From Achromobacter deleyi (lineage in GTDB: Bacteria > Pseudomonadota > Gammaproteobacteria > Burkholderiales > Burkholderiaceae_B), in the NCBI RefSeq assembly GCF_016127315.1, contig NZ_CP065997.1:4960001-5024000 (forward strand): a DNA stretch of 64,000 bases, written 5' to 3'. Every line of letters begins with the position of its first letter. Position 1 is the first letter of the stretch. A model generated the notes under the pieces. The model saw nothing but the letters and a program-made list of their open reading frames with translations, was not told the DNA's origin and ran no database searches. Positions 8,757-13,375 of this stretch are shown here, one piece after another. Both the position numbers and the translations under genes were made by a program.

Positions 8757-8800
8757 AAACTGTACCGGCATTCAGAGGTACAGTTTGGACGAACAGTACC
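8757..8800. promoter_or_regulatory. Palindromic operator between mvaA and the MocR gene
   Basis: AAACTGTACC (8757-8766) and GGTACAGTTT (8777-8786) form a perfect 10-bp inverted repeat around a 10-bp spacer. A third copy, GAACAGTACC (8791-8800), is a direct repeat of the first with 8 of 10 matches, 34 bp downstream. MocR-family regulators often bind such mixed direct and inverted repeats in their divergent promoter. Binding is inferred. Confidence 0.7.
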
Positions 8801-8847
8801 ATCGCACTGCACCAATTTCCGACCTTTCCCCTGCTGGAAACCACCCC

Positions 8848-10278
8848 GTGGACGCCGACAACTCCCTGGGCCGCGCCCCGCGCGCCGCGCCCATTGCCGA
8901 AAGCCTGGCGCGCCTGATCGGCCGCCAGATCGCCGAGGGCGTCTACCGCCCGGGCGACAAATTGCCGTCGCTGCGCGAACTGGCGCAATTGCACCGCTAT
9001 GCCAAGAACACCGTGGTGGTGGCGTTTGAGATGCTGGTGGCGCGCGGCCTGGTGGAACCGCGCCGCGGCTCGGGCTTCTACGTGCTCGATACCGGTCCGG
9101 CGCAGCGCGCCGCCGACGAGGAACCGGGCCAGTTGAGCCGCGCCATGGACATCGTCTGGCTGATGCGCGAGCAGCTCAAGACCCAGCCCGACGCCATCGC
9201 CGCCGGCGACGGTTTCCCGCCGGTGGAGTGGCTGGCCGACATGCGCATGGACCGCTATCACCAGAAGGTGGTGCGCACCGGGCTGGGCACGCTGTTCCGC
9301 TATGGCAGCCGCTTCGGCTACGCGCCGCTGCGCGAAAGCCTGGTGCGCAAGCTGGGCGACGTCGGCATCAGCGCGGCGCCGTCGCAATTGGTGCTGACGC
9401 ATGGCGCCAACGAGGCCATGGACCTGGTGATCCGCTACTTCCTGCCGCCGGGCGCGGCGGCGCTGGTGGACGATCCGGGCTATTACCCGCTGTTCGGCAA
9501 GCTCAAGCTGGCCGGCGTGCGCATGCTGGGCGTGCCGCGCCTGTCGGACGGCCCGGACCTGGCGGCGCTGGAGGCGTTGTTGCAGCGCGAGAAACCGCGC
9601 CTCTTTTTCACCCAGTCGCTGGCGCACAATCCCACCGGTTCGGACATTTCGCCGGCCAAGGCCTACAAGCTGCTGCAGTTGTCCGAGCGCTACAACCTGA
9701 TCGTGGTGGAGAACGACCCGCTGGCCGACTTCAAACCGACCTCGGCGGTGCGGCTGTCGGCGCTGGACCAGCTGGAACGCACGGTCTACATCGGCAGTTT
9801 CTCGAAATCGTTCTCGGCGGCGCTGCGGGTCGGCTTCATCGCCTGCGGCGCGGGGCTGGCCAGCGACCTGGCGGACCTGAAGGCGCTGGTGCACGTCAGC
9901 AGTTCGGAATACTGCGAACGCATGGTCGACGTGATGCTGCGTGACGGCCACTATGAGCGCCACCTGGTGCGCTTGCGCCAACGGCTGGAGGCGGCCACCG
10001 GCGACGCGCTGCGGGCGCTGGATTCGCTGGGCGCCGCGGTCTACACGCGGCCCACCAGTTCGCTCTATCTGTGGGCGGCGTTTCCCGGCATCGACAATTC
10101 GCTGGCGCTGGCCGAGGACCTGATGCCGGAGAAGGTCATCATGGCGCCGGGCCGCGTGTTCAGCGTCGACCCGACGGCGGCCTCGCCCTGGTCGCGCTGC
10201 AATGTGGGCGCGGTGGCCTCGCCGCGCTTTCATGCCGCGCTGGCGGCGCGCCTGGGCCGCGCTGGCGCTCAGCGGTAG
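8848..10278 (+). CDS. MocR-family (GntR wHTH-aminotransferase fusion) transcriptional regulator
   Basis: 476 aa. The N-terminal GntR winged helix (about 18-90, GVYRPGDKLPSLRELAQLHRYAKNTV) is joined by a linker to a fold-type I aminotransferase domain with the PLP-lysine motif YIGSFSKSFSAALRVGF near residue 320. I chose GTG 8848 (GGAAA seven bases upstream); the in-frame TTG at 8785 would place the start inside the operator. It is divergent from mvaA, so it probably senses a PLP-linked or amino-containing signal and controls mevalonate use, though MocR proteins in mevalonate loci are not something I can cite. Its 3' end overlaps the convergent nrdG by 10 bp. Confidence 0.88.
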   Translation: MDADNSLGRAPRAAPIAESLARLIGRQIAEGVYRPGDKLPSLRELAQLHRYAKNTVVVAFEMLVARGLVEPRRGSGFYVLDTGPAQRAADEEPGQLSRAMDIVWLMREQLKTQPDAIAAGDGFPPVEWLADMRMDRYHQKVVRTGLGTLFRYGSRFGYAPLRESLVRKLGDVGISAAPSQLVLTHGANEAMDLVIRYFLPPGAAALVDDPGYYPLFGKLKLAGVRMLGVPRLSDGPDLAALEALLQREKPRLFFTQSLAHNPTGSDISPAKAYKLLQLSERYNLIVVENDPLADFKPTSAVRLSALDQLERTVYIGSFSKSFSAALRVGFIACGAGLASDLADLKALVHVSSSEYCERMVDVMLRDGHYERHLVRLRQRLEAATGDALRALDSLGAAVYTRPTSSLYLWAAFPGIDNSLALAEDLMPEKVIMAPGRVFSVDPTAASPWSRCNVGAVASPRFHAALAARLGRAGAQR

Positions 10279-11060
10279 GCGAACTCCTCGAACCAGCCGC
10301 GCAGCATGGCCTGCGCCTGCGGGCCCAGCAGCCGCGCGGGCGGGGTGCTGGGGCAGCTGCGCGCGCCTTGCACCGCGAAGCGCTTGACGCCGCGCCGCGC
10401 CAGTTCGCGCGCCAGGCCCAGCAGCCGGGTCTCGTCGAGCCAGTCGGGGTGCCAGGTGATGCGGCATTCGAAGTCCACGCCCGCCGTCAGCAACTGCGTC
10501 AGGCAGGCCTGCGCCGGGCGGTGCGAATCGCGGCGGCCAGTGATGTCGTCATAGCCTTGCGCGTCGGCCTTGATGTCCAGGCCGACCCAGTCCAGGTAGC
10601 GCAGCACGTCGGCCAGGCGCAGCGGATAGATGCCGGCCGTGTGCAGGCCGATGCGGTATCCCATGCGCCGCGCCTCGCGGATCATCGACGGCAGGCGCGG
10701 TTCGCTCAGCGGCTCGCCGCCCGAGAACACCACCCCGTCCAGCAGGCCCTGGCGGTTTTCCAGGAAGGCGCGCACGTCGCGCCAGTCGTAGCGCGCGTTG
10801 CGCGTCTGCAATTCGGGGTTGTGGCAGTAGTGGCAACGCCACGGGCAGCCGGCAATGAAGATGACGGCGGCCAGCGTGCCGGGCCAGTCCACGGTGGAGA
10901 AGGGCGTCAGCCCCCCCACCGCCGGGGAATGGCGCGGCAGCGGCTGGGCCGCCGGCCGCGGCGGCGCGGCATGGACCATGCGTGGCGGCTGGCGGGCGGG
11001 AGCGGCCTTGCGGCCGCCCGCCGCTTCAGGCACGTTGTTCGACGAAGAAGCGGCGTTCAT
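10269..11060 (-). CDS. nrdG: Anaerobic ribonucleotide reductase activating enzyme (radical SAM)
   Basis: 263 aa. Cys72, Cys76 and Cys79 in GCPWRCHYCHNPE are the CxxxCxxC ligands of the [4Fe-4S]/SAM cluster; FSGGEPLSEP follows as the SAM-binding GGE motif. An N-terminal proline/alanine-rich stretch of about 45 residues precedes the domain. It generates the glycyl radical on class III reductase under anaerobiosis. Its ATG (AAGGCG upstream) lies inside the 3' end of the small glycyl-radical gene (35-bp overlap), so the two are translationally linked. Confidence 0.93.
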   Translation of the reverse strand: MNAASSSNNVPEAAGGRKAAPARQPPRMVHAAPPRPAAQPLPRHSPAVGGLTPFSTVDWPGTLAAVIFIAGCPWRCHYCHNPELQTRNARYDWRDVRAFLENRQGLLDGVVFSGGEPLSEPRLPSMIREARRMGYRIGLHTAGIYPLRLADVLRYLDWVGLDIKADAQGYDDITGRRDSHRPAQACLTQLLTAGVDFECRITWHPDWLDETRLLGLARELARRGVKRFAVQGARSCPSTPPARLLGPQAQAMLRGWFEEFAYR

Positions 11061-11208
11061 TGAATTCGCCTTGTTTGCCGGTATTGAAGGAAGACACGGG
11101 GCGGTGGTAGCCCATGACGCGGGTCCAGACTTCGCAGCGCACGCGCTGGCTGTCGTCCAGGCGCAGCGCCTGCGGGGCGGCGGCTTCGGGGGAGATCACG
11201 GTTTGCAT
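11026..11208 (-). CDS. Stand-alone glycyl-radical domain of anaerobic ribonucleotide reductase (split NrdD C-terminus)
   Basis: 60 aa. Residues 24-55 read RCEVWTRVMGYHRPVSSFN then TGKQGEFNERRFF. In single-chain class III reductases the end of NrdD carries this very segment (R-x-x-G-Y-x-R-P-V...GK..E...R), whose glycine holds the radical; here that would be Gly33. The full-length NrdD upstream stops before this motif, after its zinc site. The small gene has its own strong ribosome binding site (CAGGAG, five bases before ATG) and is separated from the nrdD stop by 64 bp, so this is a real second gene rather than a frameshift. It resembles, in logic, the separable glycyl-radical protein GrcA of pyruvate formate-lyase. 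Confidence 0.85.
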   Translation of the reverse strand: MQTVISPEAAAPQALRLDDSQRVRCEVWTRVMGYHRPVSSFNTGKQGEFNERRFFVEQRA

Positions 11209-11272
11209 AATGGCTCCTGGGGGAAAGGCCGGGCGGGGATCGCCCGGGAAAAAAAAGCGGTGGGCGGCGATA

Positions 11273-13273
11273 TCAGGCCGGCGCGCAGCAAGACGCCTGT
11301 TTGGCCAGCAATTCGGCGTCGCACTTCGGGCAGAACTCGTGGTGCCCGGCCAGATAGCCGTGGTTCGGGCAGATCGAGAACGTCGGCGTGACGGTGATGT
11401 AAGGCAGCCGGAAATTCGACAGCGCGCGCCGCACCAGCTCTTTGCAGGCGCTGGCCGAGGACACGGCCTCGTTCATGTACAGGTGCAGCACGGTGCCGCC
11501 GGTGTACTTGCCCTGCAGCGCTTCCTGCAGGGCAAGCGCCTCGAACGGATCGTCGGTGTGGCCCACCGGCAGCTGGCTGGAGTTGGTGTAGTAGGGCTGG
11601 GCCTCGGTGCCGGCCTGCAGGATGCCGGGGTAGCGCTTGCGGTCCTCGCGGGCGAAGCGGTAGGTGGTGCCCTCGGCGGGCGTGGCCTCCAGGTTGTACA
11701 GGTGCCCGGTCTCTTCCTGGAACTCGGTCATGCGCGCCCGCACCCGGTCCAGCAGCCGCACCGCCAGCGCGTGGCCGGCCGGCGTGGTGACGTCCTCGGC
11801 GTCGTCGCTGAAGTTGCGGATCATCTCGTTGATGCCGTTCACGCCCAGCGTGCTGAAGTGGTTGCGCAGAGTGCCGAGGTAGCGCCGGGTGTACGGGTAC
11901 AGGCCCTGGTCGATGTAGCGCTGCACCACCTTGCGCTTGGTTTCCAGCACGTCGCGGCCCATGCCCAGCAGCAGGTCCAGGCGCGCCATCAGCGCGGCCT
12001 CGTCGCCGCGGCAGGTGTGGCCCAGCCGCGCGCAGTTGACCGTCACCACGCCCACCGAGCCGGTCTGCTCGGCCGAACCGAACAGGCCGTTGCCGCGCTT
12101 GAGCAGCTCGCGCAGGTCCAGTTGCAGGCGGCAGCACATGGAGCGCACCATGTGCGGCTCCAGGTCGGAATTCAGGAAGTTCTGGAAATACGGCAGGCCG
12201 TAGCGCGCGGTCATTTCGAACAGGCGCTCGGTGTTGGGGTGGTCCCAGTCGAAGTCGGGCGTGATGTTGTAGGTGGGGATCGGGAAGGTGAACACGCGCC
12301 CCTTGGCGTCGCCGGCCATCATCACCTCGATGTAGGCGCGGTTGATCATGTCCATTTCGGTCTGCAGGTCGCCATAGGCGAACGGCATTTCCTCGCCGCC
12401 GACGTAGGGGATCTGCTCCTTCAGGTCGGCCGGGCAGGTCCAGTCGAAGGTCAGGTTGGTGAACGGCGTCTGCGTGCCCCAGCGGCTCGGCACGTTGAGG
12501 TTGTAGATCAGTTCCTGCATGCATTGCTTGACCTCGGTGTAGGTCATCGCGTCGCGGCGGATGAAGGGCGCCATGTAGGTGTCGAACGAACTGAACGCCT
12601 GGGCGCCGGCCCATTCGTTCTGCAGCGTGCCCAGGAAGTTGACGATCTGGCCGATGGCCGCCGACATGTGGCGCGGCGGTGTGGCCTCGATCTTGCCGGG
12701 GATGCCGTTGAAGCCCTCGGTCAGCAGCTGGCGCAGCGACCAGCCGGCGCAATAGCCGCTGAGCATGTCCAGGTCGTGGATGTGGATGTCGCCGTCGCGG
12801 TGGGCCTGGCCGGCCTCGGGCGTGAAGACGTTGGACAGCCAGTAGTTGGCGGTGACCTTGCCGGCCACGTTCAGGATCAGGCCGCCCAGGCTGTAGCCCT
12901 GGTTGGCGTTGGCGTTGACGCGCCAGTCGCGCTGTTCGAGGTATTCCTCCATGGCGCTTTCCACGTCCACCAGGGTGTGGCGCAGCGCGCGCAGGCGGGC
13001 GTGCTGTTCGCGGTAGACGATGTAGGCGCGGGCGGTGCGCCAGTAGCCGGCCTTGACCAGCGTTTCCTCGACCTGGTTCTGGATGGTCTCCACGCCGGGG
13101 CAGACGTTGCCCTCGGCGGCCAGCGCCGCGATCACCGCGCTGGCCAGTCCCTGCGCGACGTCGGCGTCCAGTTCTCTGGTGCTGCGGCCGGCGGCGGCGA
13201 GCGCCGCCGCGATCTTGTCGCGGTCGAATGCGACGACCCGGCCGTCGCGCTTGAGGATGTGTTGGAGTTGCAT
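11273..13273 (-). CDS. nrdD: Anaerobic (class III) ribonucleoside-triphosphate reductase, large part, lacking the glycyl-radical motif
   Basis: 666 aa from ATG 13273 (12 bases further upstream is another ATG). An ATP-cone regulatory domain covers residues 1-90 (KRDGRVVAFDRDKIAAAL). The ten-stranded barrel core follows with the cysteine motifs RSMCCRLQLD and TVNCARLGH. The C-terminus has a zinc-site-like CPNHGYLAGHHEFCPKC, then a short tail ending CCAPA; the R-x-x-G-Y glycyl-radical loop that should come next is missing and is encoded by the following 60-codon gene. It supplies deoxynucleotides for anaerobic growth, fitting the nitrate respiration genes in the window. Regulation by FNR/ANR and NrdR is suggested by upstream boxes. 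Confidence 0.93.
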   Translation of the reverse strand: MQLQHILKRDGRVVAFDRDKIAAALAAAGRSTRELDADVAQGLASAVIAALAAEGNVCPGVETIQNQVEETLVKAGYWRTARAYIVYREQHARLRALRHTLVDVESAMEEYLEQRDWRVNANANQGYSLGGLILNVAGKVTANYWLSNVFTPEAGQAHRDGDIHIHDLDMLSGYCAGWSLRQLLTEGFNGIPGKIEATPPRHMSAAIGQIVNFLGTLQNEWAGAQAFSSFDTYMAPFIRRDAMTYTEVKQCMQELIYNLNVPSRWGTQTPFTNLTFDWTCPADLKEQIPYVGGEEMPFAYGDLQTEMDMINRAYIEVMMAGDAKGRVFTFPIPTYNITPDFDWDHPNTERLFEMTARYGLPYFQNFLNSDLEPHMVRSMCCRLQLDLRELLKRGNGLFGSAEQTGSVGVVTVNCARLGHTCRGDEAALMARLDLLLGMGRDVLETKRKVVQRYIDQGLYPYTRRYLGTLRNHFSTLGVNGINEMIRNFSDDAEDVTTPAGHALAVRLLDRVRARMTEFQEETGHLYNLEATPAEGTTYRFAREDRKRYPGILQAGTEAQPYYTNSSQLPVGHTDDPFEALALQEALQGKYTGGTVLHLYMNEAVSSASACKELVRRALSNFRLPYITVTPTFSICPNHGYLAGHHEFCPKCDAELLAKQASCCAPA

Positions 13274-13278
13274 CGCTG

Positions 13279-13294
13279 ACACCATATGTTGTGG
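13279..13294. promoter_or_regulatory. NrdR-like box next to the nrdD start
   Basis: ACACCATATGTTGTGG fits the NrdR consensus acaCwAtATaTwGtgt at 13 of 16 positions, including the conserved C, A, AT, T and G. A much weaker second copy is centred about 33 bp away at 13312-13327. NrdR sites normally come in pairs about 31 bp apart, so the second match and spacing are imperfect. Confidence 0.4.
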
Positions 13295-13361: not shown

Positions 13362-13375
13362 TTGACGCTGGTCAA
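13362..13375. promoter_or_regulatory. FNR/ANR-like box upstream of nrdD
   Basis: TTGACGCTGGTCAA is a perfect TTGAC-N4-GTCAA palindrome, 8 of 10 matches to the FNR/ANR consensus TTGAT-N4-ATCAA, about 90 bp before the nrdD start. It would explain induction of the nrdD operon without oxygen. Confidence 0.6.

Follow-up and report, generated by a model that had tools for sequence, protein, structure and literature searches.

Achromobacter deleyi and many other bacteria appear to make class III ribonucleotide reductase in two pieces, with the glycyl-radical loop in a separate small protein

Results

Organization of the nrdD locus

A locus for class III (anaerobic) ribonucleotide reductase was analysed in a stretch of 64,000 nucleotides (nt) of Achromobacter deleyi DNA (assembly GCF_016127315.1, contig NZ_CP065997.1, positions 4,960,001 to 5,024,000), which is called the window below. 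Three genes lie side by side on the reverse strand. They are nrdD for the catalytic chain (11273..13285), a gene for a 60-residue glycyl-radical-loop protein (11026..11208) and nrdG for the radical S-adenosylmethionine (SAM) activase (10269..11060). All features of these genes given below are on the same strand.

The nrdD gene was identified from its open reading frame and from profile matches. It encodes 670 residues when read from the ATG at 13285, or 666 residues from an alternative ATG at 13273, and ends with a TGA stop at 11273-11275. The NrdD chain matched Pfam NRDD (PF13597) over positions 2-528 of 562 (E 1.1e-171) and NCBIfam PRK08270 with 1117.7 bits. The barrel and the ATP cone that mark a class III reductase were both found in it, the cone at residues 9-96 (12998..13261; PF03477, E 1.6e-21). 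The finger-loop motif MCCR at residues 383-386 (12128..12139) holds the expected thiyl-radical cysteine or cysteines; this motif is described for the class III finger loop in PMC9669993. Cys179 lies inside a GYC motif. A zinc-type ribbon, C639-x2-H642...C652-x2-C655, forms a predicted metal site (11321..11371), and the chain ends 15 residues past its last cysteine. The chain has no R-x-x-G-Y loop; the C-terminal loop expected of class III NrdD is present only when the two genes are taken together. The initial annotation, made from the window sequence, had described an NrdD that keeps the ATP cone, the active-site cysteines and a zinc-like site and stops before the loop, and the profile end and the motif positions bore this out.

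The segment after the ribbon (11276..11320) was conserved in 75 relatives and helical in the tethered model of a relative described below, and we propose it as a docking helix. In the tails of split NrdD, Asp was found in 75 of 75 relatives, mostly followed by [AE]-E-[LI]-[LI]-A-[RK]-[KQ]. The C-terminus in the window reads CCAPA (11276-11287). A class-I-like redox tail formed by this Cys-Cys pair was considered and dropped, since at least two cysteines were present in only 20 of the 75 split tails.

The missing loop was found in the small gene. Its 60-residue product matched NRDD positions 532-562 (E 3.8e-8, 32.9 bits, cut-off 26.2), and together with the match of NrdD it makes up one NRDD domain. 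No other Pfam family, including PF01228 (the radical domain of pyruvate formate-lyase and GrcA), matched the small protein at E up to 1. A 14-row alignment showed R22, C25, E26, R30, M32, G33, R36, P37, N42, G44, K45, E48, R52 and F55 to be invariant. Gly33, in R30-V-M-G33-Y34, aligned to the C-terminal loop of NRDD and would be the radical glycine (codon 11110..11112). The ATG of the small gene stands 64 nt from the nrdD stop in a different frame, and is preceded by a ribosome site, AGGAG (11214..11218), of a kind common in the relatives. The start of nrdG sits within the 3' end of the small gene, with an overlap of 35 nt. These results agreed with the earlier claim that the loop has its own gene with a ribosome site, adjoining nrdG. 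The NrdG protein is of the NrdG2 type with C72-x3-C-x2-C; it scored 181.3 bits against TIGR02495 (cut-off 131.15) and provides the cognate activase expected of a class III reductase.

The whole genome (6,987,272 bases in one contig) was then searched. Only two NRDD pieces were found, namely NrdD and the small protein. The genome gave no match to the glycyl-radical domain PF01228 and one match to PF02867, the large-chain family of other reductase classes. Since no other copy of the loop was found, a class III reductase in this genome must draw its radical loop from the small protein.

The small gene in related loci

GTDB genomes were scanned with the small-protein motif CE[VI][WY][TS]RVM. At least 579 stretches were obtained, and the best 80 were analysed; the motif would also match one-chain genes, and the best-80 list is biased to close kin. 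In these 80 named loci, 78 were split, none was fused, and 2 had no NrdD in the stretch examined. The survey of nrdD loci proposed with the initial annotation was thereby carried out, and the split generalized.

The frame of the small gene relative to nrdD was 0, 1 and 2 in 23, 23 and 32 loci, respectively. In 35 of the 78 split loci, the small frame opened only at or after the nrdD stop, and in 18 of those 35 a single stop alone parted nrdD from the small gene in the same frame. An in-frame ATG with a ribosome-site piece was present in 77 of 80 small genes, compared with 185 of 2020 control ATG triplets from a stretch that is mostly nrdD. The small-gene core, compared among 30 Achromobacter loci, showed variation at 3 of 31 first, 1 of 31 second and 23 of 31 third codon positions. 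In 77 of 80 loci the nrdG match started no more than 300 nt from the small gene, and 46 of 79 had their first possible nrdG start inside it. In genome G874 the small gene was directly upstream of nrdG and 9 kb away from nrdD. Given this proximity and the start overlaps, the link of the small gene with the activase is at least as close as its link with nrdD.

Distribution of the split form

Samples of genomes were examined at three taxonomic levels. In the source family, 106 of 268 genomes carried the small protein or the same loop, and at least two of them (G034 and G036) carried the loop fused. The class sample of 370 genomes contained 39 with an NRDD match, of which 30 were read as split, 7 as fused and 2 as partial; 25 of the split loci were checked by sequence. 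In the phylum sample of 397 genomes, 66 had a match, with 46 fused (mostly from few families), 19 split and 1 too weak to call. These calls were checked by sequence except for G857 and G860, and the class and phylum samples share some genomes.

Named holders of the split form were Achromobacter, Bordetella, Ralstonia, Duganella, Thiobacillus and Rhodopseudomonas, with Cupriavidus necator H16 and Sulfuricurvum (Campylobacterota) in addition. Protein names, taken without the loci, would add Pseudomonas (with P. aeruginosa), Stutzerimonas and Halomonas to these holders. The small gene was plasmid-borne in Paracoccus and, from a listing alone, in Bradyrhizobium. These results suggested that many bacteria appear to make class III NrdD in two pieces, with the radical part as a separate protein of about 50-70 residues. 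Some split NrdD genes contained intein-like inserts. A LAGLIDADG_3 match (E 4.1e-7) was found in L100 1337-4396 (genome G384), with a similar pattern in G631, and a sub-threshold intein-splicing match was found in L150 3389-5812.

Natural fusions and a second split

One-chain relatives with a nearly identical loop were found in Actinobacteria, in Acetobacteraceae and in Achromobacter spanius. In the A. spanius type (G034 and G036; L274 and L275), nrdD and the loop share a single reading frame, and the ATP cone is mostly gone. A tree of the NrdD core was built by a quick search with 102 of 153 rows; roughly two thirds of L194-L273 were left out, as were two other rows. The A. spanius one-chain form (99*) was nested within split Achromobacter (8-row group, 95*), and a 16-row one-chain group (98*), mostly actinobacterial by name, sat among split rows. 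The starred branches force at least four changes of state. The older one-chain forms are on long branches, and the tree leaves the earliest fission unresolved.

Topology tests were performed on 87 rows, with 15 long-branch or outgroup rows removed. One single fused clade was rejected (p 7e-19), as were the joining of A. spanius with the actinobacterial group (p 1e-6) and with the Acidiphilium type (p 7e-5). The joining of the Acidiphilium type with the mostly actinobacterial group was not rejected (p 0.16). On these trees two separate re-fusions are supported, and three are not proved. Because the pieces appear to have been re-joined more than once, they are most simply regarded as parts of one enzyme.

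The loop was also found as a separate reading frame after nrdD, as in the source system, in genomes G925 and G857. In G925 (L097 3543-3734) it is an open frame of 64 residues with TRRITGYL, and a stop in the same frame stands between it and nrdD. Its loop sequence differs from that of the source-type split, and its place in the tree is distant. Judging from these sequences, this second split is independent and arose in another NrdD type.

The Cupriavidus necator system

The three-gene layout of the source locus was also found on plasmid pHG1 of C. necator H16, where the middle gene (H16_RS32675) encodes 66 residues. NrdD of this strain (L108 1786-3816) has 676 residues and lacks the loop, which is in H16_RS32675. 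Small proteins of this kind had been thought to be annotated as NrdD elsewhere, and this was so in RefSeq naming, where H16_RS32675 is called nrdD; databases label many of them anaerobic ribonucleoside-triphosphate reductase. Residue 650 of C. necator NrdD is the glycine of C-P-T-H-G-Y-L-A-G, inside the ribbon and outside the radical loop. It corresponds to Gly643 in the window. G650 was reportedly named as the radical site by Siedow et al. in 1999, since the G650A mutant lost anaerobic growth. A later genome paper (PMC2864759) refers to that study for the essential role of nrdDG in complete denitrification, and lists NrdDG of a sister species as Rmet_5137 and Rmet_5139, with one locus number between them.

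Proposed two-chain enzyme

The break falls between the ribbon and the loop, both pieces are conserved, and the small gene is equipped with start signals of its own. The pattern across genomes suggests that the locus very probably encodes a two-chain class III ribonucleotide reductase, in which the 60-residue protein is an obligate subunit that supplies the glycyl-radical loop. NrdD would supply the allosteric cone, the ten-stranded barrel, the active-site cysteines and the zinc-type ribbon. The binding site of the small protein would lie next to the ribbon of NrdD, and the contact would probably be made by the conserved NrdD tail, D-[AE]-E-[LI]-[LI]-A-[RK]-[KQ], and an L-x-D-x-x-R segment of the small protein. 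NrdG would form the radical on Gly33, either on the free small protein or on the complex. The loop would then enter the barrel, where Gly33 would trade a hydrogen atom with a finger-loop cysteine, as in one-chain NrdD. A loop without a tether could leave for activation, or be swapped after cleavage by oxygen. A tethered model of a relative superposed on one-chain NrdD structures and was consistent with this docking, with a helical tail; its alignment held 27 natural fusions among 33 rows.

Several points weigh against this proposal. The docking was modelled in a tethered chain, and docking in trans is inferred. A split-only model from 15 rows failed as a whole, with a mean predicted local distance difference test (pLDDT) score of 56, and says nothing on docking. 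The 18 loci with a single stop would each, taken alone, be compatible with read-through. Siedow et al. are said to have taken the G650A phenotype as showing that the radical is in NrdD itself. No biochemistry on the small protein and no description of split NrdD were found in the open-licence papers searched, and most subscription papers were outside this search.

A programmed frameshift, stop read-through or a sequencing error might merge both genes into one chain, as the initial annotation had allowed. In the window, the small-gene frame is open back into nrdD, with the next stop at 11475. The window alone therefore cannot exclude a frameshift; the relatives do. The single-stop loci are in line with such a merger, but all three relative frames were seen, the small frame often opened only at or after the nrdD stop, nearly every small gene had its own ribosome-site piece, the small gene of G874 is far from nrdD, and the split recurred in many independent assemblies. 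Frames, ribosome sites and G874 led us to reject sequencing error, read-through and programmed frameshift as general explanations, and we regard a merged chain as extremely improbable. Even less credible is a decaying, non-functional nrdD with its end cut off, for which nothing speaks except the split itself. Against decay stand the spread of split forms (30 of the 39 genomes with an NRDD match in the class sample), the strong coding constraint on the small gene and the essential role cited for split C. necator nrdDG in complete denitrification (PMC2864759). The split was confirmed to be conserved and selected, and it is not an error.

The radical might instead be located on the H-G-Y glycine of NrdD (G650 in C. 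necator, Gly643 in the window), with the small protein doing something else. The invariance of this glycine in 33 aligned relatives is in favour of this, as is the G650A phenotype reported by Siedow et al. One-chain relatives, however, hold both H-G-Y and a C-terminal R-V-M-G-Y in one chain, which indicates that H-G-Y is not the radical loop, and R-V-M-G-Y alone aligns to the end of NRDD. In the ribbon, H-G-Y falls between the first ligand pair and the second, where a structural defect would explain the phenotype. A radical on this glycine is very unlikely. We give a similarly low probability to the small protein being merely a GrcA-like part that repairs oxygen-cleaved NrdD. Stand-alone viral copies of the loop do resemble the spare part of phage T4 for pyruvate formate-lyase (PMC8683613). 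However, the genome search turned up no full-length NrdD that could be mended, and NrdD itself was without the loop in the 78 split loci. The small protein may serve in repair in addition to acting as a subunit.

The initial annotation had proposed that the glycine acts in trans, like GrcA. The first part was supported, given that no other copy of the loop was found in the genome. The likeness to GrcA needs refining: GrcA is a spare part for an enzyme with a loop of its own, and the source small protein is the sole source of the loop. The comparison with GrcA fits the stand-alone phage copies better than the source small protein.

Stand-alone copies in phages and viruses

Viral contigs were also scanned for the small protein and its relatives; 261 stretches encoded one or the other, and the best 80 were analysed. 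These copies are known here from IMG/VR records, many of which are fragments. In 79 of the 80 stretches (L114-L193), tblastn with the window proteins as queries gave no NrdD or NrdG match. Sixty of these records extended beyond the stretch analysed; searched whole, 59 had only the loop end of NRDD, and 1 also had NrdD. Of 14 loci tested for their neighbours, one of them on a cellular contig, 12 had at least one of phage type. Such neighbours were DNA polymerase, terminase, integrase, tape measure, head protease, head-tail adaptor, helicase and RecT. No phage hallmarks were among the neighbours tested at the other two loci, L121 and L167.

Cellular genomes carried such copies too. Genome G504 has, in addition to a split NrdD, a lone loop gene next to a RecT-like gene (L091, G504:C3). 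The small genome of Sutterella G1005 (L223) combines three NRDD systems: one in a single chain, a split one with a catalytic part that is broken in the assembly, and a lone loop gene. PHROGs places the loop family under unknown function (phrog_4132). In a curated phage collection of 50,697 records, the window small protein gave only two weak matches, the second being MT835493. The archaeal virus ANMV-1 encodes a stand-alone protein of 144 residues with a Cys-rich part and a radical loop (L112 2725-3159), and no relatives of it were found in one viral scan.

According to PMC8683613, phage T4 carries a spare part for pyruvate formate-lyase. The logic of the phage loop copies is close to this, and the protein family is different. 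More speculatively, phages may exploit the modularity of the loop by encoding the loop protein only. Our confidence in this phage cartridge idea is moderate. In its full form, the class III radical would be an exchangeable cartridge: an obligate subunit in many Pseudomonadota, with phage cartridge-only genes that plug into host NrdD and refresh or take over anaerobic synthesis of deoxyribonucleoside triphosphates (dNTPs). We lean slightly towards this form. If it is true, the wrong residue of C. necator NrdD was published as the radical site. The phage copies suggest viral control of the anaerobic dNTP supply with about 50 codons, which is undescribed in the open-licence papers searched.

Comparison with known systems

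The two-chain system is a variant of the known class III enzyme, one that those papers do not describe. It shares the ATP cone, barrel, finger-loop cysteines, ribbon, loop and activase with one-chain NrdD and NrdG, as in the structures from T4, T. maritima, P. copri and S. thermophilus. It differs in that the loop is a separate gene product and that NrdD gains a conserved tail after the ribbon. GrcA (YfiD) from E. coli and its phage T4 version Y06I are small stand-alone proteins that bring a glycyl-radical loop in trans (PMC8683613), as the source small protein would. However, GrcA and Y06I are of the PF01228 kind, whereas the source small protein belongs to PF13597. GrcA also repairs a complete enzyme with its own loop, whereas the only NrdD found in the source genome is loop-less. 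The split class II reductase NrdJa/NrdJb of Pseudomonas aeruginosa (PMC4520616) is similar to the present case in that the reductase chain is made as two polypeptides, but it belongs to another class and has no glycyl radical.

A separable radical subunit makes several questions testable. One is whether an encounter with NrdG requires the radical domain to move out of the barrel, another is how the allosteric state affects docking of the radical domain, and a third is whether exchange of a single small protein can repair oxygen damage. The allosteric effect on docking is disputed between PMC11226230 and PMC12662201. Annotation and experiments are affected in the denitrifiers C. necator, Paracoccus and, by protein name, Pseudomonas, where nrdD and nrdG alone would be expected to be inactive.

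Upstream elements and neighbouring gene

An NrdR-box-like palindrome was found over the nrdD start (13279..13294), with 3 mismatches to the consensus. It is one site, read on both strands, and 0.01 chance matches were expected. Upstream of nrdD there is an FNR/ANR-like box, TTGAC-N4-GTCAA (13362..13375), with 2 mismatches to the consensus; it is weak alone, with 11 matches in the window and 4.6 expected. On the other side of the locus, a convergent open reading frame of 497 residues (8785-10278) overlaps the end of nrdG by 10 nt. To judge from its resemblance, it may encode a MocR-type regulator.

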